A stretch of DNA of 42,009 bases from a virus. The stretch spans positions 1 to 42,009 of the IMG/VR virus record IMGVR_UViG_3300030329_001120; one strand, 5' to 3'. The notes under the pieces were generated by a model that saw only the letters and a program-made list of their open reading frames with translations, was not told the origin of the DNA and made no database searches. Numbering within the stretch: position 1 is the stretch's first letter; each line of letters begins with the position of its first letter. The translations under genes and the position numbers were made by a program. Below, piece by piece: positions 4,482 to 28,500 of the stretch.

Positions 4482-4525
4482 AACATGTATTAAAATAAAT
4501 TATTAAAAAATAAAAATTATAAATT

Positions 4526-8136: not shown

Positions 8137-9740
8137 TGGCAACAAAAGGACAAATAGTAGAACAGGTTCTTAAATTAGTAAATGGTGGAGATATAAGCGA
8201 TGACTCTAAGGCTACAATGCAAGAAGTTGGAACCCTCTTAGAACATGAGAGAGATGCTTTAGTTAGAAAAACTGTAATGGAAAACGCTGCTATAGGAGAA
8301 CATGAAATTCCAAGTGAATTTTTAAGTTATCATAAATTATTGTTATCAGGAGATGAAACTTTTGGAAGTTCTCCAAGACCATATGCAAAACTTCCTCAAA
8401 TGCCAGTAAATTTACCAAACGATGGAAGCATATACAGAGTTTGTAGAATGACTAGTCCAGCGTATAAAGATCATGTTGACGCTTTTAATGTTATAGCACC
8501 AGCTTACACTCAGGATAATGGTGCTTATAGTGATAATGGTTTTGACTTTACCCTTAAAACAGGGACTCATGATATAGGAAATAAGTTTGTTTTATCGTTT
8601 GAGCATGGCCCTGATGCATCAACACTTAAGAGTTATCAGTTTACATTTAATTATGAAGAGCCATCAGACTCTTATAATAATGCTAGGCCAGTTACTGAAA
8701 GAAGTATTAAGCCAGCTTTCCTTCATTTTAGTTTAATGAAAAACGAAGCTTTTACTAAATTTTTAGAAGGAAATCGTTTATATTTTCACTACTTTCAACA
8801 TAATGAAGGCGTAAATGATAGTTTTAGAGAAAATTTTAGATTTATAAGTAGTGATCTTGCTAGTAGTTTTGGTGCAACAAACGCTGATAATTTTGATATA
8901 AAATCAGTTTTAACAAATGAATCTATTATAACTACAGATACAGCAAACCCAACACTTAATTCTTCGTGGACTGCAGGTGACCAAGACACATACCCCACAT
9001 CAGGATTAATCGTCCAGATATGGTATCCTAAAAATAAAAGATTATTTGATATGGAGGCAGACTCTTTGGGTGTTAAAGCCAAAGGTTCTTGTTATTTAAA
9101 CTGTGCATTAACAATAGATGCAGAAGAAATGGAATCAGATGCATATAGTGGTATAGGTTCTGCAGAAGTTAGAAGAATGTTTATCAATAGGTTTGGTGCA
9201 ATTTTAAAACAATATGGAGTCGAGGTTGATTTTAATGGCCCAGAGGGAGCAAGTAGTGAACTGATATTTAAAGAATCTTACCCACTTGGTGGATTCTCTA
9301 ATGTTGTGGTTCCAACTATTGGTACTGTTGGCACAACTTTAGCTTCTTATTCTCAAGTAGCTGGCAGTAAAGAACTTGCTGAATTAGCTAAAGGTAATGA
9401 TATGACTTGCTACTCTAGGATGCCTAATCCTGGTATATACTCAAAAATGTATGATAGTGCTATAAATTTAAGTGGTAGAAAATACTGGTATAGACAAGAG
9501 GGTAGAATATACCTATATAATGAGGCTTTAAATTTTGATTTAGGGTTTGGTGAAATAAGTAATGCAGAGTCTTACATATTAGTATGGATGCTGTCAAAGT
9601 CAAGTTCTCTAGGATTTAACGATGAATTTCCAATGCCATCAGACGCAATTAAAGATGTGATAGCATCTCTGGTTTCTACGTTTACAACCATGAGGGCAGC
9701 AAAAGAAGATTTAACTAATGATAATGTAGATATAGTATAA
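8136..9740 (+). CDS. Connector/ring-type structural protein with central insertion
   Basis: A 534-aa protein. The N-terminal 65 residues (KGQIVEQVLKLVNGG, then HERDALVRKTVMENAA) and the C-terminal 60 (FPMPSDAIKDVIASLVSTF, TMRAAKEDLTNDNVDIV) are helical. They look like the two ends of a connector fold. Between them, residues of about 100-440 are Gly/Ser/Thr/Asn-rich beta-like sequence that could be one or more inserted surface domains. It overlaps both neighbours by one base (TAATG). It probably builds a neck or tail ring or adaptor. No exact family name can be given with confidence. Confidence 0.5.
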   Translation: MATKGQIVEQVLKLVNGGDISDDSKATMQEVGTLLEHERDALVRKTVMENAAIGEHEIPSEFLSYHKLLLSGDETFGSSPRPYAKLPQMPVNLPNDGSIYRVCRMTSPAYKDHVDAFNVIAPAYTQDNGAYSDNGFDFTLKTGTHDIGNKFVLSFEHGPDASTLKSYQFTFNYEEPSDSYNNARPVTERSIKPAFLHFSLMKNEAFTKFLEGNRLYFHYFQHNEGVNDSFRENFRFISSDLASSFGATNADNFDIKSVLTNESIITTDTANPTLNSSWTAGDQDTYPTSGLIVQIWYPKNKRLFDMEADSLGVKAKGSCYLNCALTIDAEEMESDAYSGIGSAEVRRMFINRFGAILKQYGVEVDFNGPEGASSELIFKESYPLGGFSNVVVPTIGTVGTTLASYSQVAGSKELAELAKGNDMTCYSRMPNPGIYSKMYDSAINLSGRKYWYRQEGRIYLYNEALNFDLGFGEISNAESYILVWMLSKSSSLGFNDEFPMPSDAIKDVIASLVSTFTTMRAAKEDLTNDNVDIV

Positions 9741-10453
9741 TGTATATAAAGTTAGAAGAAATAATAAATGATATTCTTGTAGAAGAAGGTAAAACAAGTG
9801 AGAATGAATTTCTCAGATATTTTAAACTTGGATTAAATGGTTTAAAAGAATTTAACTTTGATATTAGTGGTGGAATAAGAACTGTAGAACTTATAGTTGA
9901 CGCTAACACATTAACTGCTACACTTCCTGGTGATTACGTTAAATATACAAAGATAGGGGTTTATGGTAATGATGGAGATATACATCCTTTAGGTTTAAGA
10001 AATCAAAAATCACTTATATCTACTGCTGCTAATTCCACTCAAGTGAATGATGATGAATTAAACCCAACTTATTTTGAATATACTCAAGAATATGGTGTTG
10101 GTGGTGGAAATAATGCCAATGGATATTATAGAGTTGATTTAGAAAACTCTACAATACATTTTAGTTCTGACTTGTCAGCAAAAAAGATTATTTTAGAATA
10201 TATATCTAATTCTCTTAGACACCCAAAAGAGGGACATGTTGTTGTTCATGAGTTTATGGTTGACGCAATGAAGTCTTACATATATTGGAAGTCTATGCAG
10301 AGAAAGAGGAATTTTCCTCCAGCAGAAAAAGAAGCTGCAAAGAAAGAGTATTATAATGAAAAGAGACTTGCGAGAGCTAGAATGTTAAGTTTTACAAAAC
10401 AAGAAGCTTTACAGACTATAAGGAAATCGTTTAAACAAGCTCCAAAAATTTAG
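9740..10453 (+). CDS. Head-tail connector / tail ring protein
   Basis: A 237-aa protein with the layout of podovirus adaptor proteins (P22 gp4 / T7 gp11-like role). An N-terminal helix includes YFKLGLNGLKEFNFD. A beta segment follows (GGIRTVELIVDANTLTATLP, then GDYVKYTKIGVYGNDGDIHP). A helical C-terminus (HEFMVDAMKSYIYWKSM and a basic KRNFPPAEKEAAKKEYYNEKRLARARM) completes it. The phrase 'LP-DYV-Y-KIGV-G-DG' is one I associate with crAss-like ring proteins. It overlaps the preceding gene by one base and lies 4 bp before the giant tail gene. Confidence 0.65.
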   Translation: MYIKLEEIINDILVEEGKTSENEFLRYFKLGLNGLKEFNFDISGGIRTVELIVDANTLTATLPGDYVKYTKIGVYGNDGDIHPLGLRNQKSLISTAANSTQVNDDELNPTYFEYTQEYGVGGGNNANGYYRVDLENSTIHFSSDLSAKKIILEYISNSLRHPKEGHVVVHEFMVDAMKSYIYWKSMQRKRNFPPAEKEAAKKEYYNEKRLARARMLSFTKQEALQTIRKSFKQAPKI

Positions 10454-10457
10454 ATAA

Positions 10458-13400
10458 ATGCAGGATAAAAGAAATTTTCAAGGTGGACTTAACAGAGATG
10501 ATGATTCCAGGGTTTTACCCAATGGAGATTATTATTATGCTCAAAACATAAGGGTTTTATCCTCTGAGGATAGAAACACAATGCTTCTTGAAAATGTGAG
10601 AGGAATGAAAAAAGAAACCTACTCGCAAAGGATAGCAGATTCAGTTGCAGGAGATTACAAAGTTGTTGGTTGCTATGAAGATTCTCCAACAAACTGTTTA
10701 TATTATTTTGTGTGGCATAGGAATTTTTTTCACTTAATATTAGAATATAACATAAATACAGATTTAATAACAACTGTATATAGAGATAGTGGTAATGTGG
10801 ATAATAACGCTTTACACTTTGATAAGAATACTATTATAACAGGAATAAATAAAATTGATGATTTATTATATTGGACTTGTGACAATCAATACACGACCAT
10901 ACGTAGAACTTATCATAATGAGCCAAAATATATAAACGTAGAAAGAGCTAAGACTGGTTGGGCTAGATATTACAATAATGGTAGTTTTGGTTCAAATCCA
11001 TCAGACTATGACATAGATTCAGTTTATCCATTTGAATTTTATTTGTCTTATATGGATCCAGGTTATGCTAATGCAACTGGTGGAACAACTACAGGTAAAC
11101 ATCTTTATTTAGATGTCTGTAAACCAAGACCTATTGCTCCTATATACCTGTATCAAACACCTATTAAAAATATAACATCTACTGCAGTACAGTTGGGTTC
11201 TGGAGGTCTTGAGATGCAAGGGCCACCAGATCCAGATAATGACAATGAGACAGAAACTGTGGCAAGTGAAACAGTAAACCCAGGTGCAATATCATATGCA
11301 AATGTTGGAATGGAGTCTTTAGATGCTACAGCAGAGATGGACTTTGCTTATAAGAAAAACAATTTGTATGGTCACATGTGGCAATTTGCTTGCAGATTTA
11401 TATATAAAGACAATGAGGTTAGTGCTTATTCTGATTGGAGTTATGTCCTTCCTGCTCCTCAATACGCAACAAATAAAGTTGATGAGTCAAAACAAAATGC
11501 TTACAACGAGGTAAGAGTTTATTATCCAAATGGACCTGCTAACGTAAGAAGCATTGAGATAGTTGCTAGAAAATGTTCTTACATAGAAACATCTCCAGAT
11601 GAAGGAAATAAGGGAGAATATTATTTAATAGCAACTGTTGATAATTATTATTATGATAGTAGCTTTACATCAGCTACAGGAGACTACAACCCACTTCCTC
11701 AAACATATTATGGATGGAGTAATACTCCAACTAGAAATATACCATTTATAACAGATTTAGACACTAGTGGACAGGTTATAGGAGTTTCAGATTTTGTAAA
11801 TGAGGAGGATACTGGTGGTCAAACATCTGTGGTGGGATCAAGTCCTGTAAATTCAGGTTTTATAAACTTTAGAAACGATGGTGTTTATGCTCAGGTAGAC
11901 CCAGTTGCTTTTGATAAATCTTTTGACCAAGTACCTCTTAGGGCAAAGGCTCAAGAGATTATAGGTGAAAATAGAATTGTATATGGTAATTATATTGATG
12001 GGTTTGACCAAGTAAATGTACACTATCATTTATCTCCTGTTTATGGTGAAAACTCGAATAACCAACAATTTGTTGTAGACGCATTAGCAACTGCTGAAAC
12101 TCCTAATCCATGGGGTTCTATAAGTGGATTTACAGGAGAAGGTGCTACTGATGAATTGGTTGGAGATGGGGCTGATTTTTCAAGTGGAGGTATTCATGGT
12201 ACAACATCAGATCAATGGGGTAATTTTATGTCTGGGTTAGAGTACATGACCCAATACGAAGGACAAGAATATAGTTATCCAGATTATTCTACTTTAGATG
12301 GATGGGAAGGTGGTAAGGCTTTTGGGTGGGATGCTAACTTAGCCAGAATAACAGTTAGAGTTTACTTTCCTACAATTGTTGAGTCTGGTCAAGTTTTTCA
12401 TTTGAAGCTTGAGTCAAGGATTAAGTATGGTGCTTTTAATGTTTTTAATGGTAATGGAGTAAAATATCCTTTTGGTGATGCTACTGGAAGTAATATCTCT
12501 GACCATTTAAAATATGATTTTTTTGGTTATATGATAGACATAAAAAAACAAGCTGGTGGTGGAGGTCTTGGCACTATGATAGACGAATTTATAGCAGATA
12601 TTAAAGCAATGGCAAACTGGGAACAGTCAGATGATGGTGGTGGTATACCAGACCTTAGAGGTTCTAATAATCCAGATAGTGAGTTTTATAACCCTAATCA
12701 TGCATATCTAGATAACCCTATAAATGGTGGAAAGCAATATACTCATTGGATGACTCCAGCCACTGGTACTTTTGCTGGAGCTACAGCTAGCTACAGTTTT
12801 AATGCAGTACAGGGAGCAGCCCCCATGAGGCTTAGAGGTATTGGAAAGTTTGACACTAGTTTTGGTTCTCAAAATGGTTTATGCCTTGTCTTTGGACCAT
12901 ATGGCCAAAACTTAAATGATATAAATACAAATAGTCTTTGCTTTATAGATGATAAAGTTGTTTATGATGACTCTCATAGACTTCCAGATGGAACAGCAGT
13001 TAGCAACCTGCATGGATGGGTATTAATAAATGGTGGAACCTATGTGAGTTCCTTAGAATGTGGTGGCTGTACTGATGGATTAGGTGCTGCCTCAGGGTGG
13101 CAATCTTTTGATGGTAGTGGTGGAGAAAATAATACACAAAGAGGGTGTTCTGATAATAATGGTGGATGGAATGACACTGGTGCTAATGCTGTAACTAATG
13201 TTGTCAACTTTGGGCCATATAACAAAGCAGGATCTAGTACTAGTAATATGGCTTTAATTAATGCAGGATACCCAGGTAACGAAGATGATGGTGACGAAGG
13301 TTCTTCATTTGGCCCTATTCAGTCAGGAACTAGCACTGCCTGGTCAGAGGTTACAGGCTTGAATATGCCTATAACTCAAACAATGATGGATATAGATAGT

Positions 13401-16400
13401 ACATCAGCATTTAAGTCTGGTGCATGGCATAGATTTGGTTTAGTTTATTATGACTATAAGGGGAGAAGTTCTAGTGTTATGCTAAACAATGAAGACTTAA
13501 GAGATACTCTTTATGACAGAAACTCCTCTGTGTATGTAGGGTTTCCCACTGAAAGAAAATTTCAACAAGGTGCAGATTTTTCTTCTTTTACAAATAATGT
13601 ATCTACAAATAACCCAAGTGGTTTAACAAATCAATCATTAACAAATAGTCAAAAACTTGGTCCAGCAGATATACATTGGAAAATATTCAGTAGACCACCT
13701 CTATACGCCACTCACTATCAATGGGTGTATGCTAGAAATACTTCTATTGGTAAATTCATGCAATTCAGAGTTTCTACAGCGTGGATAAATAAAGCATCTA
13801 AGGCAGGAGTCTCTATAGCTGAAGGTCAGGTAGATACTAAAATATATATATCTCTAGACACTATGGATGGTAGAGATTGGAGTTATAGTCAAAGAAACAG
13901 GTCTCTTGTAGGTGAGTGGAGTTTTGCAGAGGGAGACAGGTTAAGGCTTATAGCTGATGGAAATGGAACTGTGTTTGATAAACATTATGACTTAAAAGTC
14001 AGTGATGTAGCTAACTTCCCTGATAGGTTTGAGTTAGGAGGTGGTGATATGGAAGAAACTCAGGTTGTTACTGAATCTCCTGTTGGTGGTGATGGGGAGG
14101 ATCCTCAATCAACTAAACCAGGAAAGTTTGTAATAATAGATGATCCTGGCATACCAGGATATGGTGTTGCTGACGCAGATAACACTGATAATGCAAATAC
14201 AAATGGATATATAAGTGGATGGCATAAAGTCACTGTTGAAATTTATAGACCAAAGAAAAACACGTCTGAAGAGCAAAGTGTTTATTATGAGTTTGGAGAA
14301 AGATTTTCTGTTCAAGGTGCTTTAACTGATGGAAGATTGCACCTTGGTCAAACATTGAACCAGGAGCCTGAAGAATTTGCAACATACTTAGGAGAAGATA
14401 CATCACTAACAATACCAGCAGCAGGAGTTTTTAGAAGAGGTGATATTTGGTACAAACCAAGAGAAGTTAAATATGTTGGTAGTGGTGGAGTTGTTGTATT
14501 GCCTAAGGTTTGGGTAGAGAGTTATTTTTTAAATGATTTCCTTCAAACTAATCACAACAACATAGCCAGACCACATATATATAGTGGATATGCTAAAGAG
14601 CAAAGAAGAAAAGCTACAATAACTTATTCTGATGTTTATCAGCCAGACACTCAATATAATGGTCTTCATTCATTTAATTTTAGCCAAAGACCATATCAAG
14701 ATTACGACATGTCTTTAGGTTCTATACAAAAACTTGTATCTAGAGATACTAATCTTGTTTTAATGCAGGAGAAAAAAATATCTCAGGTAATGATAAATAA
14801 AAGTATAATAACCTCTCCATCTGGAGATCAAGGTATATCTTTATCTAATAATGTCTTGCCTGAAGAAGCTACTCCATTCTCTGGAGATTATGGTGTGTGT
14901 ACTAATCCTGAAGCTGTTGCTGTACATTCTAAGTCAATATATTTTATTGATATAAAAAAAGGTGCTGTTCTAAGGTTGGGTGGCGATGGAATAACAGTAA
15001 TATCTGACTATAAGATGACTGATTATTTTAGAGACAAGATGGATTTGTACCAAGAAATAATAGAATCTAATTATGATCTAGCTTTAGATGGTGGGTTATT
15101 TATATATGGTGGTTACGACCCAAGACATGGGGAGTATATTGTAACATTTCCAGCAGTATACAGCTCTGCTGCTAGTTCTACAAATAACTTTTTTACCCCT
15201 TTTTTTGATGGTAATAGCCAAGCTTGGCAGTCAGTAACTGACATATGGAACTCTTTTATTTCTATACCACAAGTTTGGAACACTCTAACCTCAGACCAGC
15301 AAGACTTTATAGTAAATGGATTATTAGCTAAAGTTGTTACCACTCAAGCTGAAACAGTGGCTTTTAATGAGAAATCTAATAGGTGGTCTAGTTTTTACAC
15401 TTTCTACCCTGAACATTATGCTTCCTTAAATAGAGTTTTTATAAGTTTTGCTAATGGAGAGTTATACAAGCATGACTCTGATTCAGATAACTACTGTATG
15501 TTTCATGGTAGATCATATCCTGATGAAGTAAAGGTTTCTTTTCCATTTAACTCTGATGTGTCTACTGTTAAAACATTTAATAACATAGCTTTAGAGGGAC
15601 CAGGTAGGCCATATGTAATACCACTTATAACATCAAGTGCAAATAATGCTGCACCTACTGTTGTAGCTACCACAGACAGTGCAAATATAGAAGGTTCTAA
15701 TGTTAATTTTAATGAAAATGACATAGAGATTGGAGATTCTTTATGGTATTACGACAATGATACATTAAGAACTTTAGGGGTTATTACTGCTATAACTGAT
15801 GCAGACACTATTGTTACAAGTGTTGCAGAGGTTAACGCATTCATAACTGCTAGTAGCACGTCTTCAGGAGATTCTCTTAGTGAGGTTTTTGTTATAACAG
15901 GTGAAAACACAGCTTTTAAAACAGATTTTGAAACAAATATAAATTCTACATCTATACCTCACAGACTGTCTTATAATAATGATGATGCCAGTAAAGTCAC
16001 TGCAGGCGTTTGGGTAGACAGAGAACAGATTTTAGGATCTCACATACCATATGGAACAACTAATAGTTCTGGTGGAGAATATATAGGTTTAGGAAATTTA
16101 CAACTAATATCTTTAGGTCCACAAGTTACAATTTTACCTGTGGGGAGCAATGTAATACAGACTTGTGGAGCTGTTGTTGGAGATACTGTATATTATTCAA
16201 ATAATGGAGTAGAAACATCTCTTGGTACTATAATATCTATAGATAATGCTAACCAATTCACTTTAAGTGTCACTCCAAGTACCATGACTGTATTTGGATA
16301 TATAAAGAAAAATGCTACAATTGAAGGTGATAGGCTAAAGGGACACTATATGGATACAACATTAACAAAAAGAACAAAAGATAAAATTCATATTTACGCT

Positions 16401-16442
16401 GCAAATGCAAATGTAATTAACAGCGAACTTAGTAATAAATAA
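10458..16442 (+). CDS. Very large tail 'muzzle'/stabilisation-type protein (1994 aa)
   Basis: The N-terminus (FQGGLNRDDDSRVLPNGDY, YYAQNIRV, LENVRGMK) is the hallmark start of podovirus tail stabilisation or muzzle proteins, equivalent in role to P22 gp10. Long beta-rich segments with blade-like repeats follow, and the C-terminus returns to conserved features (ALEGPGRPY; LKGHYMDTTLTKRTKDKIHIYAANANVINSELSNK, given here in pieces of the last 35 residues). The middle, about residues 530-980, is Gly/Asn/Ser/Asp-rich and low in charge, with Cys-containing GG/GC patches near 870-900. It looks like an inserted surface domain. The protein probably plugs the tail and may contact the receptor. A single ATG at 10458 lies 4 bp after the connector stop. 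Confidence 0.65.
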   Translation: MQDKRNFQGGLNRDDDSRVLPNGDYYYAQNIRVLSSEDRNTMLLENVRGMKKETYSQRIADSVAGDYKVVGCYEDSPTNCLYYFVWHRNFFHLILEYNINTDLITTVYRDSGNVDNNALHFDKNTIITGINKIDDLLYWTCDNQYTTIRRTYHNEPKYINVERAKTGWARYYNNGSFGSNPSDYDIDSVYPFEFYLSYMDPGYANATGGTTTGKHLYLDVCKPRPIAPIYLYQTPIKNITSTAVQLGSGGLEMQGPPDPDNDNETETVASETVNPGAISYANVGMESLDATAEMDFAYKKNNLYGHMWQFACRFIYKDNEVSAYSDWSYVLPAPQYATNKVDESKQNAYNEVRVYYPNGPANVRSIEIVARKCSYIETSPDEGNKGEYYLIATVDNYYYDSSFTSATGDYNPLPQTYYGWSNTPTRNIPFITDLDTSGQVIGVSDFVNEEDTGGQTSVVGSSPVNSGFINFRNDGVYAQVDPVAFDKSFDQVPLRAKAQEIIGENRIVYGNYIDGFDQVNVHYHLSPVYGENSNNQQFVVDALATAETPNPWGSISGFTGEGATDELVGDGADFSSGGIHGTTSDQWGNFMSGLEYMTQYEGQEYSYPDYSTLDGWEGGKAFGWDANLARITVRVYFPTIVESGQVFHLKLESRIKYGAFNVFNGNGVKYPFGDATGSNISDHLKYDFFGYMIDIKKQAGGGGLGTMIDEFIADIKAMANWEQSDDGGGIPDLRGSNNPDSEFYNPNHAYLDNPINGGKQYTHWMTPATGTFAGATASYSFNAVQGAAPMRLRGIGKFDTSFGSQNGLCLVFGPYGQNLNDINTNSLCFIDDKVVYDDSHRLPDGTAVSNLHGWVLINGGTYVSSLECGGCTDGLGAASGWQSFDGSGGENNTQRGCSDNNGGWNDTGANAVTNVVNFGPYNKAGSSTSNMALINAGYPGNEDDGDEGSSFGPIQSGTSTAWSEVTGLNMPITQTMMDIDSTSAFKSGAWHRFGLVYYDYKGRSSSVMLNNEDLRDTLYDRNSSVYVGFPTERKFQQGADFSSFTNNVSTNNPSGLTNQSLTNSQKLGPADIHWKIFSRPPLYATHYQWVYARNTSIGKFMQFRVSTAWINKASKAGVSIAEGQVDTKIYISLDTMDGRDWSYSQRNRSLVGEWSFAEGDRLRLIADGNGTVFDKHYDLKVSDVANFPDRFELGGGDMEETQVVTESPVGGDGEDPQSTKPGKFVIIDDPGIPGYGVADADNTDNANTNGYISGWHKVTVEIYRPKKNTSEEQSVYYEFGERFSVQGALTDGRLHLGQTLNQEPEEFATYLGEDTSLTIPAAGVFRRGDIWYKPREVKYVGSGGVVVLPKVWVESYFLNDFLQTNHNNIARPHIYSGYAKEQRRKATITYSDVYQPDTQYNGLHSFNFSQRPYQDYDMSLGSIQKLVSRDTNLVLMQEKKISQVMINKSIITSPSGDQGISLSNNVLPEEATPFSGDYGVCTNPEAVAVHSKSIYFIDIKKGAVLRLGGDGITVISDYKMTDYFRDKMDLYQEIIESNYDLALDGGLFIYGGYDPRHGEYIVTFPAVYSSAASSTNNFFTPFFDGNSQAWQSVTDIWNSFISIPQVWNTLTSDQQDFIVNGLLAKVVTTQAETVAFNEKSNRWSSFYTFYPEHYASLNRVFISFANGELYKHDSDSDNYCMFHGRSYPDEVKVSFPFNSDVSTVKTFNNIALEGPGRPYVIPLITSSANNAAPTVVATTDSANIEGSNVNFNENDIEIGDSLWYYDNDTLRTLGVITAITDADTIVTSVAEVNAFITASSTSSGDSLSEVFVITGENTAFKTDFETNINSTSIPHRLSYNNDDASKVTAGVWVDREQILGSHIPYGTTNSSGGEYIGLGNLQLISLGPQVTILPVGSNVIQTCGAVVGDTVYYSNNGVETSLGTIISIDNANQFTLSVTPSTMTVFGYIKKNATIEGDRLKGHYMDTTLTKRTKDKIHIYAANANVINSELSNK

Positions 16443-16469: not shown

Positions 16470-17729
16470 ATGGCCAAAAAGAAGAAAAAATTAAAAGGAT
16501 TACATGCTGCTAAGTATTTTATTGGTGGTCTAATTTCTGGTATAAAAGGTGCAAAAAAGTCAAAAGAGGATATAGCTAAAGCTGAAGCTGATAGAGCAGC
16601 ACAGTTAGCTAAAGAAGAAGAATTAAGACAAAATAGACAAAAGTTAACAATGTCTCCAGAGATCGCTAAAATGAAAGAAGGTCTTGGTGGTACAGAAATA
16701 CAAAGAAGGCAAGAAGCTGCAGAGAGAAGTAGAGCAGGTGCAATGGCTGCTGCTACTAGAGGTGGTTCAAGGGTGGATCCTTTTGCTGCTGCTAGAGCAG
16801 GTCAAGCTCAAGAGGCTGCTTTAGCTTCTGAACAAGCTGCTGCTCAAAGAAAAGGTTTAGAGGCTGGTGTTGCTGAGAGAGGTAGACTTAGACAAACTCA
16901 AGAAGCTAGAGAGCAATCAGACTTAGCTAGACAGGCACAGATGGCTGACTATGCTAGAGAAGATGTTCAGGCAGCTCAATCAAATTTAGCTTCTTATCAA
17001 CAACAACAATATGGTGCTATTGATGCAGGTATTGGTATGGCAGCAAGTGCTTTGTCAGATAAAAAAGAAAAAAAGAACATTAAGAAAGTTGGGAAAACAA
17101 AAGATGGAGTTCCTGTAAGTGAGTTTGAATACAAAGATAAAAAAGATGCTCCAAAGGGTCCTGGTAGATACAAGGGTGTTATAGCACAAGACCTTGTGGG
17201 AACAAAGCATGAGGGGGCTGTTAAAAAAATAGGCAAGAACACTTTAGGTGTTAATTATGGAAAGTTAGACGTTAAGTTTGGAAAGATTAGTGGTGGAAAA
17301 CTTAAAGATAAAATGAAAAGAAAATATAAAAAAGGTGGTACACCAAAAGACATGATGGAAGCTGGTGAAGCTGAGGTTACACCAGGAAAATTCTCTCATG
17401 AAAAGAACCCAATAGACCTTGTTCAAAAAAATGGAGAAGAGGGTAAGCCAGAAAAGATAGGGGAAATGACAGGTGGTGAAGCTATAGTTCCACCAAAGAA
17501 TGTTAAGCAAATGAGAAAGATGATTGAAGAAAAGGATGGTAAAGCTTTAGTTAAATTAATGGATAAACTTTTAACTAAGTGGGACAAGGAAGCAGAGGAT
17601 AACGATGAATCAAAAGCAGAGTTTGGAAAGACTATGGCTAAACATGGTGCTGTCCATAAACCTAGAGTGCCATCAGGGAAACAAAAATTCAAATTTAGAA
17701 GCCTAGGGAGAAGTTCTCTATTTAAATAA
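16470..17729 (+). CDS. Virion protein with intramolecular chaperone (peptidase S74) domain
   Basis: A 419-aa protein in three parts. Residues 1-30 are basic with a short hydrophobic stretch (YFIGGLISGI). Residues 30-195 are an Ala/Gln/Glu/Arg-rich helical, coiled-coil-prone region. Residues of about 190-275 form an S74-type intramolecular chaperone: SDKKEKKNIKKVG, then GRYKGVIAQDLVG, then NTLGVNYGKLDV. The auto-cleavage dyad of this family, Ser and Lys five residues later, fits Ser196 and Lys201. About 145 more residues follow, Lys/Gly/Glu-rich, ending in a basic FKFRSLGRSSLFK tail. S74 domains normally end tail spikes, so the tail after it here is unusual. It precedes two internal-virion-type genes, and a role as a spike/fibre or an ejected protein is open. 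Confidence 0.7.
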   Translation: MAKKKKKLKGLHAAKYFIGGLISGIKGAKKSKEDIAKAEADRAAQLAKEEELRQNRQKLTMSPEIAKMKEGLGGTEIQRRQEAAERSRAGAMAAATRGGSRVDPFAAARAGQAQEAALASEQAAAQRKGLEAGVAERGRLRQTQEAREQSDLARQAQMADYAREDVQAAQSNLASYQQQQYGAIDAGIGMAASALSDKKEKKNIKKVGKTKDGVPVSEFEYKDKKDAPKGPGRYKGVIAQDLVGTKHEGAVKKIGKNTLGVNYGKLDVKFGKISGGKLKDKMKRKYKKGGTPKDMMEAGEAEVTPGKFSHEKNPIDLVQKNGEEGKPEKIGEMTGGEAIVPPKNVKQMRKMIEEKDGKALVKLMDKLLTKWDKEAEDNDESKAEFGKTMAKHGAVHKPRVPSGKQKFKFRSLGRSSLFK

Positions 17730-17735
17730 TAACAT

Positions 17736-19592
17736 ATGTCAATAGCTAATGTATCAGAAATAGTAGGAAGGAGAGATCTTGTAGCTGAAGCTCAGGGTTG
17801 GTCTGACATAATGCTCAAGAAAAAAGCTCTTGAGATGAAGTCTGAACAGGCTAAAGAGGCACGTAAACCAAAACCATATAACTTTGAGTTAGCTGAGTTT
17901 GGAACTAAGAATGAAAACATGTTTGCTGTACAGCAAGATTTGAATGAGCAAGCTTATAACTTTGCTATGGCTAATTCTGATTTACTTAGAATGGATCCTT
18001 ACTCAGAAGATTGTGGACCTAATTGTAAACAAGCCCACAAAACATTGTATAATATGCAGGCAGCAGCACAGATATTCAATCAATATGGTAACGACTTAAA
18101 AAGTAGATATGATAATTTAGCTAATTTGATGTCTACAGATAGAGATAATTATTGGAACGCAGAGAACTCACAAACTTTAATGGACATGAAAAATGTTTGG
18201 GAGCAAGGGATGAATGGTGAAAATTATAATTTCACTTTTGGTCCTGATGGTAAATTGATGGTTGAAACTAGAAATAGAAAGCAAACAAAAAAAATTGCAA
18301 CAGATGAGAGTGGAGAAGCTATCTTTAAAGAGGATGGAGTAACCCCTAAGCATGTTTACTATGACGAAAACAACGAAGAAACTGATGATGTCTCCAAAGC
18401 TAGAAAGGATGAAAATGGTAATCCAGTATTTGTTATGGAAGATATGAATACAGGTCAAGATACAGATTTTGATATTTCTTTTAAAAACTTTGGAGATTGG
18501 TTAACAGATCTTGGTTTTAATAATGCTATTAAAAATGCTAACAATAGTAATTTTCAAGACACAAATGTTGATTATGCAAAACTTCTTAAAACTAACAAAC
18601 TTACAGGAGAATATCTAGAGGATATGTCTAAGCAAGCTTTAGAGGCTTACATATTTGGAGGAGGTGGAGAATGGGATGATGAATCAGGAGAAGGTACAAC
18701 TATGGGTCACTCCTCTTATTTGTCAAAATTAGTAAAAGCAGACAAACAGGCTAAAGGGGATCTTAGTCCAGTAACAAAAATAGATATTATTAATAAGGCT
18801 TATGAGCTTGGTATTGGCACACTTGAGACTTCCCAGAAAAAACAAGATACTCAAGATCAAATGGAGCTTTATAATTTAAATATTCCTGGTGTGGTATATA
18901 AAAATACTGTTGAATATGACATTGAGGGAAATGTTATACAGGTTCCAAAAAGAGAGGATTCAGAACCAGTAAATTATCCTTTTGAAGGGAAGGGTTTGGC
19001 TACTGGTGGTTCTGGTCAGAATTACATATCATTTAATCACACAATTAATCCCAACAACACAACTATTATAAGTGGTGATAATAATTTTCAAACAGTTAAT
19101 AGCACTACTGCTCTTGACGCTTATGAGAAGCCAAGAGAGTTTCGTACTGGAACTATTGGTATTGCTCCATTTTACGTTGATCCAGATACTGGAAGGGGTA
19201 GGGCTATATCTCAGAAAGACTTAACTAACCTAACACTTGAAGAGAAAAAAAATATACAATATAAGGTTGCTCTTTATGGTGATATTGTTTTTACTAGAAA
19301 CGAATCAGGAAAGTTAGGAAATCTTGGAATAGATTTTACAGATACTGATGATGGACTTCTGGTTCCAGCTATAATAGATGCTGGTTTTCATGAAAACAGA
19401 ATCAAAGATGTTAGAAGTTCAACTGATCCAGACAAGGCATCAAGTAATAGAATACTTTATGACCAAATAGCAAAACAAGCTGCAGCAAAACAAGAGGCTT
19501 GGAAGGCTGAATTAGAGGGAGAGTTAAAGGGAGATCAAAAAAATAATCAAAACCAACAAAACAATAATCAAGATCCATTAGGTATATTATAA
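17736..19592 (+). CDS. Internal virion (cargo-like) protein
   Basis: A 618-aa hydrophilic, mostly helical N-terminal region (1-200), containing a CGPNC pair, QAHKTLYNMQAAAQIFNQYGNDLKSRYDNL (20 of these at about 107-126) and several Trp/Asn-rich segments. The C-terminal half is mixed alpha/beta. The last 30 residues are Gln/Asn-rich low complexity (NQNQQNNNQDPLGIL). No enzyme motif was recognised. Its place between the tail proteins and the 3373-aa polyvalent protein, with a one-base TAATG overlap to the latter, matches internal head proteins ejected with DNA in podoviruses. The role is inferred from context only. Confidence 0.5.
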   Translation: MSIANVSEIVGRRDLVAEAQGWSDIMLKKKALEMKSEQAKEARKPKPYNFELAEFGTKNENMFAVQQDLNEQAYNFAMANSDLLRMDPYSEDCGPNCKQAHKTLYNMQAAAQIFNQYGNDLKSRYDNLANLMSTDRDNYWNAENSQTLMDMKNVWEQGMNGENYNFTFGPDGKLMVETRNRKQTKKIATDESGEAIFKEDGVTPKHVYYDENNEETDDVSKARKDENGNPVFVMEDMNTGQDTDFDISFKNFGDWLTDLGFNNAIKNANNSNFQDTNVDYAKLLKTNKLTGEYLEDMSKQALEAYIFGGGGEWDDESGEGTTMGHSSYLSKLVKADKQAKGDLSPVTKIDIINKAYELGIGTLETSQKKQDTQDQMELYNLNIPGVVYKNTVEYDIEGNVIQVPKREDSEPVNYPFEGKGLATGGSGQNYISFNHTINPNNTTIISGDNNFQTVNSTTALDAYEKPREFRTGTIGIAPFYVDPDTGRGRAISQKDLTNLTLEEKKNIQYKVALYGDIVFTRNESGKLGNLGIDFTDTDDGLLVPAIIDAGFHENRIKDVRSSTDPDKASSNRILYDQIAKQAAAKQEAWKAELEGELKGDQKNNQNQQNNNQDPLGIL

Positions 19593-22500
19593 TGACTCAA
19601 GACGATAAAATAACAATAGAAGAATTAGCCAAAAGGCTAAAAGAAAAATATCCACAGTATCAAACGATGGATGACCAAGAGTTGGTTGATAAAGTTCTTT
19701 CCAAATATCCTGAGTATCAGAATGTCTTAAAAAAAAAAGACCAAAGCGAAGAAGATTTATTGGATGTGGAAAGTGGTACATCAGATGTGGACGATACTGG
19801 TTTGGACTCTTCAGAGGTTGAGCAAAACACACCAGTATACACCATAAATGGAGAAAACTCATCTAAAGAATCTGTTTTAGAATCTATAAACAACGAAGAA
19901 TTTATTGAAGGTATTGCTAATGGTGATAACAATATAGATATTCAAAATGATGAAGTCACTGCACAGACTTTAATAGATAGTGTAAATTCATTCAAAAAAA
20001 GAAAGGAAGAAGAAAATAACACTCCTAATTTAAGTTTAAACGAACAGGTAGATCAAGAATTATTAAAGTCAGACCCCACTAGAGCTGTATCTAAAGAAAG
20101 TCTAGTTCCTATATTCACTCAAGAAAATAAAATCTCCACAACTGATGGATTAACTCATAATGCAGTGAACCCTGTTGTTAATCAAGCTTTATCTGAAATG
20201 AGAGATGTTTGGCCAGAGCAACCACTACTTAATGTTGAGAGTGCCTTCAGAGATGAAGAGCTAAATAAAAGTGTTGGGGGACATAACCATTCTTACCATT
20301 TACATGGAATGGCTTTAGATCTTACAGGTGATTCAGCAAAAGTTTTTTTAAACTGGGTCAATACAACTGAACAAGGCAAGGCTTGGGCTGAGAAATGGAC
20401 AGAAAGTGCTGATGGTGGAATTGGAGTTATATTAGAATCAGAGGGAACTAGCAAGGAACATGTCCACGTTCAATTTAAAAAAGAACTTGGAAAGCCTATA
20501 ACCAACTCACAACCTCCAGAACTTCCTGAAGGAAATATGGAGACAATAGAGAGAAAAACTCAAGAAAACCAACCTGATATAGCTGATGATGGTTGGGTGT
20601 CAGGAGATGCTCCTATGATGAGTCTATTAGGAATGACAAGGAGAGATCAGCAATCTAAACTTTCTGAAATTGATAACACTTATTCTAATTTTAATATTGA
20701 AGATGTTTCTGACTTATACAATGAGCAAGAATTAAAGCATTTAAGAGACAAATTAGAGTCTGAAGAGTTAATGGTCACTAAAGGAAGAACTCCAGGTATG
20801 GTTAAAAAAAGGGGGTTTGGTATAACAGACCCATGGTGGAAGTCTGACGAGTACTTCAATGAATTATTAAATAGACCAAGGAAGATTATACAAGACTATC
20901 TTAATAGTGGATGGGAGCATGTAGGTAACAGAAGTTATAAACATACAGAAACAGGTATTGTTATATCCCCTGAAGATTCACAGGGTAGAAATCCTTTGAT
21001 AGCAAATAACTCTGCTATACCTAAAATGATAAAATTATCTAGGGAAAACCCTGATTATTTTAACGAGATTAATGACACTAAGATTAAAGAACTTTATAAG
21101 GAGTTTAACCCAATTAGATTTAACTACCTTCAGCAAGAGATAGATACAAAAGATGAGGGAGATAAAAAAGAACTTTTAGAGCAACAGCTTAAAAACGAAA
21201 TGGGAGAGTTTGTTTTAAGTAAAAAAAACAGCATATTAACCAATTTAGAAAAAACTATACCAAAAGATTTTAATGAGAAAACTATAGAGTTTGGAAAGAA
21301 GCTTTCTTTAATAGAAGATTGGCTAACCAAACAGCAAAAGTTAATAAACTCCTATCCTAAAACTGCATATGGTTTTGTTGACACAAGGTATATGTCTGAA
21401 AAAGATATAGAGGATTATAATAATTTAGTTAAGGGTTATAATGAACAATATAATGGAACGTATAAAAATCTTTTAAATGAGCAAAACAAGTTATTTGAAG
21501 AAAACCCTAATATAGATACTATAAATAATTTATCTAAAGGATTTAACGAAACAGTGAAATATCTTAACGCTGTTAAAGAAAATGAAGTGTGGCAATCTCA
21601 CTATAATAAAATAAAAAAGAGACAAGAAATTGTGGACAAAACTTGGAACGAAATGAATTGGTCTGAGGTGCCAGCTTTTGTTTTGGCTCAACTTGGATCT
21701 GACTTAACTGGGAATCTTTTAAAAGGTATTTCTAGTACACCTGAACAAATAAAGAGTATATTTTCTTATGAAAATGAATTTGACTGGACAGACATGGTGG
21801 CAAAAGAAGTTGCTGACGCATGGGAGACATCTCCATTTAATATTGCAAAGCCAACTGCTCTTAATAATGCTGAAGCTTTGGGTAAGGTTTATTCATCAAA
21901 AGTGAATGGAAATTCAGTTTATTTTGATGATAAAGGAAAAATAAAACACATATTAAATAGCGATGGCTTAAAGGTTGAAAATGGCACAGATGCATACAAA
22001 GAAATAGTAGAAGAATATAACAAAAATCAAGAATCATATCCAATAGAAGAAAGTTACCAGTGGGGGAATACACTTTACAATGTCATGCATGCAGGTGGAG
22101 GTTTTGCTATAGACATGGGACTTGCTTGGTTGACTAGAGGTAGAGCAAAAGCTTTTGGTGCTGGACTTAAGGCTCAAAGATATGCTTTTACAGGTGGTCT
22201 ATATGGTGCTACAAATTTAAGAATGTACCATGGTTTTAAAGAAGAAGCAATAAATCAAGGTATGCTACCTGGAGACGCTTCTAGATTTGCTAACGAAGCA
22301 ACTGCTATAGTTTCAGCAGTAGAAATTCTTACACCTGATTTTGGTATGCTTAGTCCAGGTACTAAAAAATTAGCTACTGATAAGGTTTTTGATGCACTCA
22401 CTAAAACTACAAAAAAAGAAGCAGTAACTGATATAATTAGAAAAAACACTATAAGAAATACTGCCTTCTATGGTGTCATGGAGGGCTCTGAAGAGGTTCT

Positions 22501-25500
22501 TCAAAGTCAAGGTGTCGAAGCTTTAAAAGATAATTATTATCGTGAATATAACTTTGAGACAGAAGGACTTACTAGAGCTTCTGCTGAAGAGTTTTTTATT
22601 GGTGCTATACTTGGGGGAGGAACAACCTTTGTTTCCAATAGAAACACAAGTAGAGATTATATAGAAAGTGATTTATATAAAGATGCTTTATTGACATCGT
22701 ATAATAACTATAAGTCTAAAGGTGGTGAGGCAGATATTTTTTCATACATAGATAACATGGTTGGTAAAAATATTAGCCCTGACAAAAAATTCACAAATAC
22801 TGATGCTAAAAAATTAAAAGACAATCTAACTAACCTTTTTGGAGAATTAGATAATTTAGTTGGTGACAATCAACTGTACGATAATGACTTGTCTAAAAGA
22901 GAACTTTTAAATCTTATAGAAGCTAGGAAAAATGCTGAAGCACTTCAAGGTTCTCTTGATCCTGTTCAGGCAGAGATGATGAAAAGTAGATTAAAAGACT
23001 ATAACAGCTCTATGGACAAAATACTTAAAGGAGCTGACCCAATAAAGGTTATGAGTGACCTTGCTATAAAGAATGATGATGCAGTTAATAATTATATTAG
23101 AGGTTTTGCTAAGTCTGAGGACATACCTGAAGGGGCTAAAGCTATTATAAGACAATTGTCTGGTGGTAAAATCACAACAGAAAGTCAGCAAAAAATGTAT
23201 CTAACTGCATTGCAAAACGATATAAAAAGACTGGATAGCATGGATCCAGATAAAATGACAGATGTAGATAAAAAGAAATTAACCCTTTACAAAAGAATAG
23301 AAAAGGATATTAGTAACTTAAAAGTTAAAAAAGATGAAACAACAACTACCACTGCAACTGGAACAGAGGCTGGAAGAACTGCCAGAGGAACTGAAGGTGA
23401 AGGTATTGGAGAAGATACTGAACAGGTTGCAACAGAATCAGAAAAAACAACCCTCAATCAAAATATAGGCAAGAGAGTTTCTTATAAAGGTAAGAGAGGT
23501 ATACTTGGAAAAGATAAAAATGGAAACTTTATAATTAAACCAGAAGGAAAGGGGAGAGGTATAAAAATTAAAGGTGTTAAGAGAGGTAACATGAGAATGG
23601 GGACTGTTGGCCTTAAGTATGAAGGTGCGAATGTGGGTGTAGACTCAAACAACAAGCTAACAATAGATGGTCAGGATTCTGGAGAAATTGTTGGTTTATA
23701 TAAAGATGACTCAGGATCTTTAGGTGGTGTAATTACTATTGATGATAATGTTGGAGACCTTATAGTAGATAAAGATAAAACTATTTCCAAACTTAAAAGA
23801 TTGCAAAAAAGAAGAAATGAAGGTAAAATATCACAAAGAGAGTTTTTAAATAAGGTTAACGAAATTCAAGGACTCAATGTGTTAACAGATAGCGATGTTA
23901 AATTTAATGCTGCAGCTACCAAATTAACAAATGATATAGTTAATCAAGGTGGTATTGATGTTATAACAATGGAGGACGTGGAGCAAATGATAGAGGAGGC
24001 CATAAGTGAACTTGGTCAGGAGTACGAAACAAAATCACAGAAGTCTAAACAAGAAAAATCTAATCAATCTAAGAGGGATAAAAAAGAAAACATAAAAGAC
24101 GATAAGAGATCTACTAAACCACTTTTTGATTCTAGAGAGGGAACTGATATAGACTCCTTAATAGAGGAGTACGACAAACTTGAGGGTGCAGAATATAAAG
24201 CAAAAGCCAGAATACTAAGACAAGCTAAAAATTTATTCCAGTCCCAAGGGCAAAATATAATTATTCATCAAGATACTGCCTCAGAGGTTGAGTATTTTAT
24301 AAACCAGGGCAAAAGTCCAACAGAAGCCATGTATTTAGCTATGGGTGGAAATGGATTTAATTTAGAGAGTGGACTAGGTAATGAAGCAACAATGCATGTA
24401 AACTTTGAGTTGGCTAATGATAACACATTGTTTCATGAGGCAGCTCACCCATTTGTAACATCCATATTTGAGGCTGCTAAACAAGGAAATAAAAATGCTA
24501 AAAAATTAGTTGATAGCATAGAGACAACATTACCAAAGGAGTATTTAGACTTTGGATATAATCCAAGAGCAGGTTATGCAAAAAATAAAGATGGTAAAGT
24601 TCCATTAGATAAAAATGGCAATGTAGACAGGAAGAAGGTTACCAATAAATATGATTCAAATGGTCCACTTGCTGAAGCACTAGCTGAGTTTTTAGCAGAT
24701 GCTGGTCTTAAAAAGTTTGATGATAATCAATCTAATTTAAATAAAGCTATTAGTTACGCTAAATCAACAATTAATTCAATACTTGGAATAGAAACTGATA
24801 ATCCTGTAAACATAAGCTTAGAAGAGTTAAGTAATTTAACTAATATAGATGACGTTGCACAAATATTCAAAGAGTCTACATCAAGGGGGATGACAGTTAA
24901 CGAGAAGGCTAGAGGTGAAGTTAAACCAACAATAAAAAAACAAGTTGATAATTCTACTCCAGGTGAAGTTATTGCAGAAAATGTAACCATAACTAGTGTA
25001 GATAGTGATATTGGTCAAAATGTTTCACCCACTAGTGTTGATAATGTGGAGAGGACATTTGAGGAGGGTGATGTTATAAGAGCAGATAGAGGTGATTATG
25101 AGGGTCAAACATTTACAGTTATAGCAGCAGATAAAGCATTAACAGGTTTGGTTAAATCACCAACAGGTTTAGAAATGGAGTTTAAAGGTGGAATGTATTT
25201 CCCATACGCTTTTAAAGGTTATGCTTGGGCAGTGGATGGAACGCAAGTGGGAACAAAATTAATAAATGCTGCAAAAAAAACAGATGGTAGAGTTGCTATA
25301 ATGATTCAGGCTGATGCAGGTATAAATGGTAGTTTATTAATGTCTCAATACATTATAAACGAGTTTCAAAATGTTATAGATAACAAGATAGCTAGTAAAA
25401 AAGATGTTTTAGAATTTATAAATGGTAAACTAAACAACACTAAGATAAGGTCAGCTATAGATAAAAGGAATTTATTAGGAAAAAGAAAGGGAATTAAAAG

Positions 25501-28500
25501 TTTAGATGAAATTATTCCAATATTTGAAAAATTAGATTTTGGCTCTAGAGCTAAGTTTGTGCAACAAATAGTAAAAGCTAAAGACAGTACATTAAGTAAG
25601 TTTAATTTACCAGGGGAAAATAAAATTTTAGAATATGTAAACGACCCAGACTTAAAAGGGGTAAGGAAAGCTAGTGTTGTTTCTATGGTACAAATAGATG
25701 TAAACGACCCTAATGTAATTGTTGATACAAAATCATCTGATTACGATGGGCCAATTCATGAGTCTTATAGATATCTTGTTAAAGGATCTCCAATAGCTGT
25801 CTTAAACAAATCTATACCTATAGAAGAACTTGTTGAAGAATATAAAAAAGACCAGTATTATAAGCAAGGTAAATACGATACAAATTTAACTTTGTACTCT
25901 GCAGGAAGACAAATGCCAGAAGTTAAGTTTCAAACATATGGAGATGATGGATTTTCATCATTAGATTCTTCTTTAGAGTTTACAGATATAATTAGTGGTA
26001 CACCAAAACAATGGATAAAAGAAATAAAAAGAGTTGGAGATAGAAATACACTTAATGAGCTTAAGTTTATAGGAATGAGAGATTTTTTAAAGTCTGTTGA
26101 AAGGTCTTACGCTGATGGTCTTATACCAAAAGCTGCTATTCAAGATTATATATCTATGAATAATACTTCTATAGATATAGAAGAAAATACTATGAGAATT
26201 AGTAATCCTATGTTTGAATTATCTAACGTAAATTTTGAAGATATAACAAACGAGGATGGTGAGAGAGTTTTATTAATAAGAGACATAAAAGCACCAAACA
26301 GGGAAATGATGTCTAATACTCCACCAACAATCAGAACCTTAATTAAGTTTGCCTCTGATAATAATTATGATACTATTGCTTTTGAGAATGGTAGCAGCTT
26401 CAAAGGGGCTAAGTCAGAGTTCTTTGATAGTGTTGTTCCTGAAGTTATGAATGATATTATATCAGACATAAACCCAAGTCAAGGAATAGTCTTAACAGAT
26501 GTAGATAATAATGGATATGTATCTATTGATATAACAAACTCTATAACAAGTCTTTCTGAAGATATGAGTAACCCATCTTCCAAGGCTCAGGTTTTTGACA
26601 ATAAGGATAAATTATTTTACACAACAAACCCTAAGTTTCAAAAATTTAATAGAATCAATTCTTTTAAAGAGTTTTTAAACAGGGAAGTTTTACCAAAAGG
26701 TAATATACCTGAGTCTGTATTTGAAATGGGTGTTCAAGCTAAAAGCAATATTGATGCAGAAAAATTTGAACTAAAAAAATTAATTGACAGGTTCAGAAAT
26801 ATAGTAGAGAGAAATCAAAAAGGAGAAAACCCAATATCATTAAAAGAAATAAATGATGCGTTGACAGATCCAACTGCTAAAATAAAATCACTAAACTCAG
26901 AACTTTCTATGTACGAAAGTGATTTAGAAACATTAGATAGGGGTGGTAAAAGTTATGCTGCTGGTATTGTTTTAGAAAAAATAAGAAATGTTGAGAAAAC
27001 AATAAAGCAACTTAAAGATGGTCACGCAGGTAGGGCGACCATAAAAGATTTAGACTCTGACCCTGAGCTTCAAGATCTAGTAAAAAAGGTTAGAAGAAAA
27101 ATAGATTCTTTAAGTAACAAATTAAAAAGCGTTGTTACAGATGGTCTTGGAGTTGTTATAGATGATAATTTAGGTATATATATTAATAGACAATATAGAA
27201 TATTTAACGACACAGAGTATAGAGACAAGATGAGAAACCTAATTGAATCTATGATTAACGAAAAGGTTAGTACAGGAAAAATAAAAGAATCTATAGAGGG
27301 CTTTGAAAAAGAATATAATATCATACAAAGTGCTATGAATCTTTTTTCAGAAAAATACAAACAATACCTTCAAAATCAAGGCCTTCCATCTGATGAAATA
27401 ACTGAAGAAAAAGTGTTAAGATTTGTTTCTCAATTATTCCTTGATAACGATAGTAGAGATGATTTTGTTAAGTCTGTTTTAAAAACAAGAAATATTAATA
27501 CTAATATTTTTACTACAAGAAAAGAAATACCTGATGCTATAAAAGATTTATATAGTCCAATAGAAAACCCTGTATACAACATAACTAACTCTATAACTAA
27601 AATGGTTGATGAGTATGAAAACCTAAACTTTAAAGCAAAAACAGTTGAAGCTTTAAATGGTATTTTAATTTTTGATGACTCAAACATTCCTGTTGGAAGC
27701 GATGGAGATAGATATAGAAACAATAAATTTACTTTAAAGTTTAATAACAAGACTTATTATACAACCAAAGAAATTAAAGAATTTATTGAGGGAGAAGAAC
27801 TTAACTATGGTAAAATAATGACACTTGCTCAAGGCTTAAATGGTGTTTTAAAACTTGGGAAAACTGTATGGTCTCCAAAGACTCACGTTAGGAACTTCTT
27901 TGGTAATATGTATTTTGCATCTATTAATGGACATGTTCCTGGTTCAAACTTTTTTGAAAGCTGGAAAGTTATGCAGAATTTGTTTGATAGTAGCACAACC
28001 CAAGAGAGAGAGGATATGTTTGCCACAATGATTAGAGCTGGAATAATAGATTCTGTTTATGCAGATGAACTAAAAGCTATATTGAAAGAAAGTAATTTAG
28101 GAAAACTTGGTTCTGAACTCTTTGAAAACAATGTGGATGTAGATGCTATAAAAAAGAAAAAACCAGGTCTTCGTAAGATTCTAAATGATTTTGTTAATAA
28201 GGCTTACCTTTTTGAAGATGTTGTTTGGAAGGGTGCAGGGTTCTTGAATGAAGTTCAAGTATATTTGGATGCAGGATATACTAGAGAACAAGCTTTGAAA
28301 GAGGCTTCTGAAAATATAAGGGGAGGTTATACTACCTACTCTATGGTTCCTAAAGTTGGTAAAAGACTTAGAAGATCTTTATTTGTTAGTGACTTCGTTT
28401 CTTTCCCTGCTGAAGTAGTTAGAACCAGTGTAAATGCAATTTTAATAGCAAAAAAACAATTAATGTCTGGTAACCCAGTGTTAATGACTCAGGGTGCTAA

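Follow-up and report, generated by a model that had tools for sequence, protein, structure and literature searches.

The window, the whole stretch of 42,009 bases that was analyzed, is the record of a marine crAss-like phage, and one of its genes raises the question of what an S74 domain does in the middle of a protein that sits among tail and cargo genes. The original prediction was that the domain acts as a chaperone for a helical coiled coil, cuts itself at a Ser196/Lys201 dyad and releases a helical trimer. Table 1 lists the features discussed below.

Table 1. Features of the S74-containing protein and of its neighbors in the window
Feature	Positions	Strand	Remarks
Ring-protein slot, phrog_13977 virion structural protein	9740..10453	+	
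Tail muzzle protein, gp44 slot	10458..16442	+	Pfam crAss_MUZ, E 5.1e-15
S74-containing protein, probable cargo/ejection slot	16470..17729	+	419 aa, ATG start; Pfam and PHROG matches
Residues 1-195, Ala/Gln/Arg-rich, predicted long alpha-helices	16470..17054	+	composition, AlphaFold2
Residues 181-195 (YGAIDAGIGMAASAL), Gly/Ala-rich, one charged residue, directly before Ser196	17010..17054	+	
Compact S74 cassette, residues 196-273 (78 residues)	17055..17288	+	missing as a unit in relatives
Ser196 codon, predicted nucleophile, predicted cut before Ser	17055..17057	+	profile aligned to ICA catalytic positions
Lys201 codon, predicted dyad partner	17070..17072	+	Lys invariant in motif-blind modules
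Linker, residues 274-303 (LKDKMKRKYKKGG...)	17289..17378	+	LKDKM part also in S74-less relatives
Conserved C-terminal domain, residues 304-371 (TPGKFSHEKNPIDLVQ...IGEMTGGEAI...)	17379..17582	+	common to crAss-like relatives
618-aa protein, gp46 (cargo 2) slot	17736..19592	+	Pfam match sub-threshold
3373-aa protein, gp47 slot, M15 peptidase domain near N-terminus	19592..29713	+	

The S74 module and its Ser-Lys dyad

In the Pfam search, Peptidase_S74 matched residues 196 to 242 of the whole protein with 20.1 bits (E = 7.7e-4), against a cut-off of 22 bits, and the excised 105-aa segment scored 24.6 bits against the same family. phrog_6121, a family of virion structural proteins, matched residues 97 to 266 (E = 4.5e-15); residues 1 to 195 alone gave no match to this family, and an NCBIfam scan of the window protein gave no match. 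Using a profile of 61 S74 modules, built without the window's own lineage and without the lineage of L072 (a second S74-bearing lineage, described below), we found that the window protein scored 58.3 bits and the reversed protein 0.1 bits. The best of 5000 whole-protein shuffles and the best of 5000 local shuffles scored 10.0 and 9.5 bits against this profile, with 3003 and 3166 shuffles, respectively, returning any score at all. The window protein alone found a chance match and nothing else among PDB sequences. Neither the window protein nor the S74-less L014 protein gave a tblastn match to annotated phages, and the 69-aa motif-free segment of the window reached E = 1 at best against annotated phages.

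An identical copy of the window protein (L001) is perhaps the window's own record. Since three contigs from other samples (L002, L003 and L004) encode full-length proteins with 87% identity to it, an assembly artefact is argued against. The dyad region reads S-D-K-K-E-K, and Ser196 lies at 47% of the protein length. Together with the Pfam, PHROG and profile matches, this bears out the predicted mid-protein S74 domain with Ser196 and Lys201, and we regard the S74 homology of the module as nearly certain.

The conservation of the dyad was analyzed with motif-blind scans, in which the query alignments began after the motif and contained neither Ser nor Lys. Among the 83 loci collected in this way (L122 to L204, with the second scan represented by its best 80 of 225 matches), 76 had an ORF that was accepted by the filter; they represent 61 distinct proteins with 53 distinct modules. 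All 53 carried Ser, Asp and Lys, with variation at the three positions between Asp and Lys. Of the seven loci that failed the filter, six have S-D-x3-K where it is expected and the last had no matching ORF. L060 was set aside because of a register shift, and its sequence carries the motif as well. An earlier count of Ser and Lys in 42 of 42 proteins came from scan patterns that contained the motif, and alignment A8 came from Ser-bearing modules; neither was used for conservation.

When a profile of 66 modules was compared with the PDB, it matched 7DC3, which is the MYRF ICA domain, at E = 1.2e-7, the long tail fiber 6F45 at E = 2.9e-6 and the phage neck appendage chaperone 3GUD at E = 0.0015. 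The Ser and Lys columns were aligned in these matches, and 7DC3 has Ala at the Ser position. Lys201 follows Ser196 by five residues, as in the Peptidase S74/ICA dyad, and MYRF cannot be cleaved without the Ser and Lys at the corresponding positions, according to passages of PMC8326128. On sequence grounds, we lean slightly toward a module that would cut itself before Ser196.

The part before the module (23% Ala, 10% Gln and 9% Arg) has the composition that the original prediction had noted. In the AlphaFold2 model of the full-length window protein (11 aligned sequences, mean pLDDT 58), helices were predicted at residues 26 to 60, 63 to 71, 74 to 97 and 104 to 190, followed by a beta domain at residues 204 to 273 and further helices at residues 342 to 391; block pLDDT was 72 to 84 for residues 201 to 270, and the remainder of the model is of low confidence. 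Residues 26 to 97 and 104 to 190 showed no significant periodicity of the heptad type. For the window protein, to which the helix prediction applies, the part before the module is probably helical and the expected lack of a beta-rich spike in front of the module agrees with the model, and the proposed coiled coil is left without a heptad signal. The 146 residues after the module, close to the 145 basic or acidic residues expected, are charged and also contain the domain common to crAss-like relatives.

A model of the module alone (66 sequences, mean pLDDT 73) showed the same type of beta domain. Foldseek gave no match for the module model at E <= 0.001. VIA-align placed the MYRF ICA domain (7dc3_C) second, with Z 2.7, rmsd 6.8 and 62 aligned residues, tied with kinases. 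The full-length model matched six entries among viral predictions with E values from 2.3e-4 to 2.3e-3 and TM-scores below 0.2, and four of the six are named ICA-domain proteins. The fold searches with the module model were left out of the evidence for the S74 assignment.

Trimerization of MYRF is driven mainly by its C-terminal helical coiled coil, and only the trimer is cleaved (PMC8326128); the C-terminal leucine zipper is required for processing (PMC3742443). We therefore looked at what follows the module in the short family. Of 92 distinct proteins, 82 end at most 20 residues after a V-x-Y near the module end, none ends at 21 to 60 residues past it, and 10, the window protein included, run for more than 60. 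Both this set and the set of 44 non-redundant proteins used below were chosen by a short-module profile that leaves out longer S74 domains by design, and the longer S74 proteins L052 and L025 8985-10229 lie outside the 92. In this sequence test (n = 92), the C-terminal trimerizing helix or leucine zipper of a classical ICA chaperone was absent from the short family. The window linker that follows the module is common to relatives without S74; because its LKDKM part occurs in them, residues 274 to 303 were not taken as an ICA trimerizing helix. The predicted release of a trimer is thus unsupported. If the short modules do cut, association must arise elsewhere, most simply in the parts before the module, and the absence of the trimerizing part is the main tension in a self-cutting reading.

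An optional cassette in a probable cargo slot

The order of the ring, muzzle, S74, 618-aa and 3373-aa genes in the window corresponds to gp43-gp44-gp45-gp46-gp47 of crAss001. The neighbors had been taken for internal virion proteins; the gp46-like and gp47-like slots lie downstream, and the upstream neighbor is a tail muzzle (nozzle) protein and not an internal one. The 618-aa protein gave no PHROG match. The 3373-aa ORF contains Peptidase_M15_3 at residues 183 to 260 (E = 1.8e-8) and a HEAAH motif further downstream, and is a candidate giant multi-domain virion protein.

According to passages of PMC10172136, gp45 and gp46 of crAss001 are cargo proteins whose presence in virions was detected by mass spectrometry. 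Portions of gp45 could be resolved both inside the tail barrel and at the portal; in the authors' expectation, gp45 is the first to leave and helps to form the channel. The same passages describe one crassvirus group (epsilon) in which no gp45 homologue was detectable, and cargo sets may vary.

The window protein matches gp45 by position, without significant sequence similarity. We considered whether its C-terminal domain is homologous to the portal-bound part of gp45 and rejected this candidate: two profile comparisons with gp45 (hhalign) gave probabilities of 4.7% and 1.4%, and two PDB sequence profile searches retrieved no gp45 chain. By eye, residues 447 to 478 or so of gp45 (L056 16988-19516; SHEENP...GEVV) resemble the window C-terminal domain. 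A search of viral contigs with gp45 gave two loci only. We consider it highly probable that the window protein is an ejection-slot protein.

The distribution of the module was followed among relatives. A scan with the C-terminal domain, together with earlier loci, gave 42 distinct proteins; 37 of them are encoded immediately downstream of an ORF with a match to the muzzle of the window, and seven of the 42 carry S74, with L077 a near-copy of L076. Two close relatives, L067 and L068, are 82% and 77% identical to the window protein in the N-terminal part and 80% and 75% identical in the C-terminal part, and in both the S74 module is absent as a single block with the two flanks intact. The more distant relatives L005 and L011 are also without S74.

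A second lineage (L072, L073 and L076) carries S74 in front of the same C-terminal domain but behind an N-terminal part that has no alignment to that of the window; S74 is absent from the relatives L075, L074 and L109 of this lineage. Between the two S74 lineages, the cassette is 69 to 72% identical and the C-terminal domain 46 to 47%, the N-terminal parts do not align, and the muzzles align in part only, with 32% identity. A quick muzzle tree was built from 38 rows, one of which (L085, branch 6.9) is probably not a muzzle; on this tree S74 presence requires four changes, at least two of them forced by well-supported branches.

The muzzle of the window is 46 to 56% identical to those of L002, L003, L067 and L068, and the product of the next gene is 75 to 92% identical part by part. 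From the sequences, this contrast may mean that the muzzle evolves fast or that recombination took place at the border between the two genes.

Since close relatives with the same flanks have no S74, the helical part can do without the module, which goes against the idea that this part needs a chaperone. Likewise, the halves remain joined in the S74-less relatives, so their separation is not essential.

Short S74 modules and the ends of DNA ejection proteins

Starting from L007, a relative reached via the window, we obtained 35 loci from viral contigs and, among annotated phages, 31 records. An ejection-type name stood under the match in four of the 31 annotated records: a 'putative ejection protein' in Pseudoalteromonas virus H6/1, a 'DNA injection protein' and a protein 'released from the phage upon host infection' in two Vibrio phage PVA1 records, and an 'internal virion protein D' in a metagenomic phage record. 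In the PVA1 record that was examined, the S74 ORF itself is without annotation and the named gene overlaps the ORF end. The other annotated records name an S74 structural protein, a hypothetical protein, or a tail, fiber or peptidase product.

Six S74 proteins were scanned against PHROGs. Four of them matched phrog_598 ('DNA ejection', the P22 gp7 family), namely, L053 (E = 4e-17), L059 (4e-16), L060 (4e-14) and L062 (6e-30); the other two, L007 and the window protein, did not. The Pfam family P22_gp7 scored 27.0 bits (4.8e-6) for L053 and 18.8 bits (0.0015) for L060, both below the cut-off of 28, with no match in L059 and L062. Residues 1 to 195 of the window protein alone matched no PHROG and no Pfam family. 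Several PHROG tail fiber models match the S74 end of L007 and L062. Short S74 modules are found repeatedly in proteins unlike spikes, at the C-terminus or close to it, and passages of a review state that S74 serves tail fibers, spikes 'and other proteins' of low complexity (PMC7824862). With four of six scanned proteins in the gp7 family, a client of this kind can hardly be called unusual, as the window protein had been. The window protein resembles the P22 gp7-type S74 proteins in layout and position, and is not a demonstrated member.

The module stands in the middle of the protein in five of 44 non-redundant proteins, a sampled set that does not give a natural frequency. Other mid-protein modules occur in proteins of 825 to 1482 aa (L046 4125-6602, L050 1605-6053 and L054 4176-7733), which are perhaps fusions of an S74 protein with the product of the following gene. 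In the window, the module is mid-protein because the C-terminal domain follows it.

We then analyzed the stretch directly before Ser. In the 44 proteins, the 20 residues before Ser contain a mean of 0.5 charged residues, compared with 3.1 expected from the rest of the protein, and 28 have no charged residue there at all. Gly and Ala make up 40% of these residues, compared with 25%. In 35 of the 44, the hydrophobicity of the stretch reaches at least the 90th percentile within the part before Ser. In the window protein it is shorter, contains one Asp and is weakly hydrophobic (mean 0.12). A strict transmembrane segment before Ser was considered and is not supported, as one of the 44 proteins reaches a hydrophobicity of 1.6 or more over 19 residues.

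Two longer S74 proteins were ranked by a related measure of hydrophobicity: the fiber-like protein L025 8985-10229 reached the 47th percentile and L052 the 99th. Since L052, a longer, fiber-like protein, has such a stretch, the pre-Ser stretch is not confined to the short family. L052 6415-9345, from the marine Cellulophaga phage phi38:1, is a 976-aa 'peptidase' with S74 near the C-terminus, and adjoins tail and endolysin genes. L025 encodes two S74 proteins, one of 617 aa with a short module (3522-5375) and one of 414 aa with a longer module (8985-10229; 108 residues after Ser), so that short and longer module types coexist in one phage.

P22 gp7 (L205 9369-10058), which has no S74, ends in 45 residues with one charge and 49% Gly and Ala, and in the alignment its S74-bearing relatives begin S74 in the region of this Gly/Ala-rich end. 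By analogy, a cut before Ser would leave these relatives with a gp7-like end. The cassette of the window belongs with the short S74 modules on non-spike phage proteins, some of them gp7-type, that mostly stand behind an uncharged Gly/Ala-rich stretch.

A possible self-removing cap and its rivals

We propose, with a probability of roughly 0.45, that the window protein is the first cargo (ejection) protein of a crAss-like phage and carries an optional S74 auto-processing cassette between its helical part and its C-terminal domain, which would act as a self-removing cap. We infer that the helical parts associate during assembly. The S74 modules would thereby be brought together, and the Ser196-Lys201 dyad could cut the Leu195-Ser196 bond. 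The N-terminal protein would then end in a free, nearly uncharged stretch rich in Gly and Ala, as P22 gp7 does, and in the mid-protein version the same cut would also separate the helical segment from the C-terminal domain. The cap role of the module, taken by itself, is tentative and less likely than not, and we lowered its estimate because the fiber-like S74 protein L052 has a similar pre-Ser stretch. A wider version is a shade more doubtful: in short-tailed phages, crAss-like phages included, a stripped-down S74 module may cap, for a time, the end of an early ejection protein that is uncharged and membrane-active, keeping this segment inert during assembly and cutting itself off after the ejection proteins have come together, and in crAss-like phages the cut might also free a tail-lodged helical part from the C-terminal domain.

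The strongest rival, possible and on balance rather unlikely, is that the compact S74 module is a folded domain that does not cut, an oligomerization or docking piece in which Ser, Asp and Lys are structural. In its favor, the trimerizing part that MYRF cleavage needs is absent from the short family, and relatives with joined halves exist. A purely structural role need not retain Ser and Lys together, however, and the dyad is invariant in the 53 motif-blind modules (the best 80 of 225 from one scan), while the positions in between vary. The earlier reading, a classical intramolecular chaperone that trimerizes the helical part, cuts and releases a trimeric helical bundle, draws on the S74 homology, the dyad and the predicted helical part in front; we now hold it improbable, as the helical part exists without the module in L067 and L068 at the identities given above, the trimerizing part is gone, and the helices show no heptad signal.

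No more probable is a module that spread horizontally, has hardly any function or none, and is tolerated between two independent domains. It would explain the gains and losses on the quick muzzle tree (four changes on the best tree, at least two forced) and a cassette better conserved between the lineages than the C-terminal domains, next to N-terminal parts that do not align; selection is indicated instead by the dyad, which is fully conserved, and by the position that the module usually takes after a Gly/Ala-rich stretch without charges. An external tail fiber or tail-tip protein, the usual S74 client, is very improbable. The tail fiber models that match the S74 ends of L007 and L062 and some annotated matches named tail or fiber speak for it, but the part before the module is predicted to be helical without a beta-rich spike, the gene has a cargo position, and four relatives match the gp7 type.

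If the self-removing cap is real, one known chaperone family would serve the DNA ejection apparatus and not fibers alone. If the module cuts, the range of S74, which includes spikes, fibers and a transcription factor of eukaryotes, would extend to the machinery of DNA delivery, and the trimerizing helix would prove dispensable. The S74 domain itself, a mid-protein S74 in MYRF and S74 on ejection proteins, the last as database or GenBank annotation, were already known; in the passages seen of the open-licence literature on S74 or intramolecular chaperones with ejection proteins or crAss, we found no description of S74 on ejection proteins. New here are the compact form without the trimerizing helix, the uncharged pre-Ser stretch, and the gain and loss of the module in crAss-like cargo-slot proteins.

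Compared with known S74/ICA domains, the window module has a significant profile match, the same Ser-Lys spacing of five and the S-D motif, but it is a compact form of 78 residues without the C-terminal helical part, and the part before it is predicted to be helical, whereas the known client has a beta-helix. MYRF also carries its ICA/S74 domain mid-protein, and the cut there gives two separate halves (passages of PMC3742443); unlike the window protein, MYRF keeps and needs a C-terminal leucine zipper. Cargo protein C1 of crAss001, gp45, is like the window gene in its position between the muzzle and gp46/gp47, and differs in its size of 842 aa and in having no S74 seen in its sequence. P22 gp7 and its S74-bearing relatives (phrog_598 and phrog_4287, 'DNA ejection'; L053 of PVA1 and L059 of H6/1) differ in that S74 is C-terminal in the relatives and that the N-terminal part of the window protein has no sequence match to gp7. 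As in the window, however, the gene precedes further ejection-type genes, and an uncharged Gly/Ala-rich stretch lies where S74 begins.
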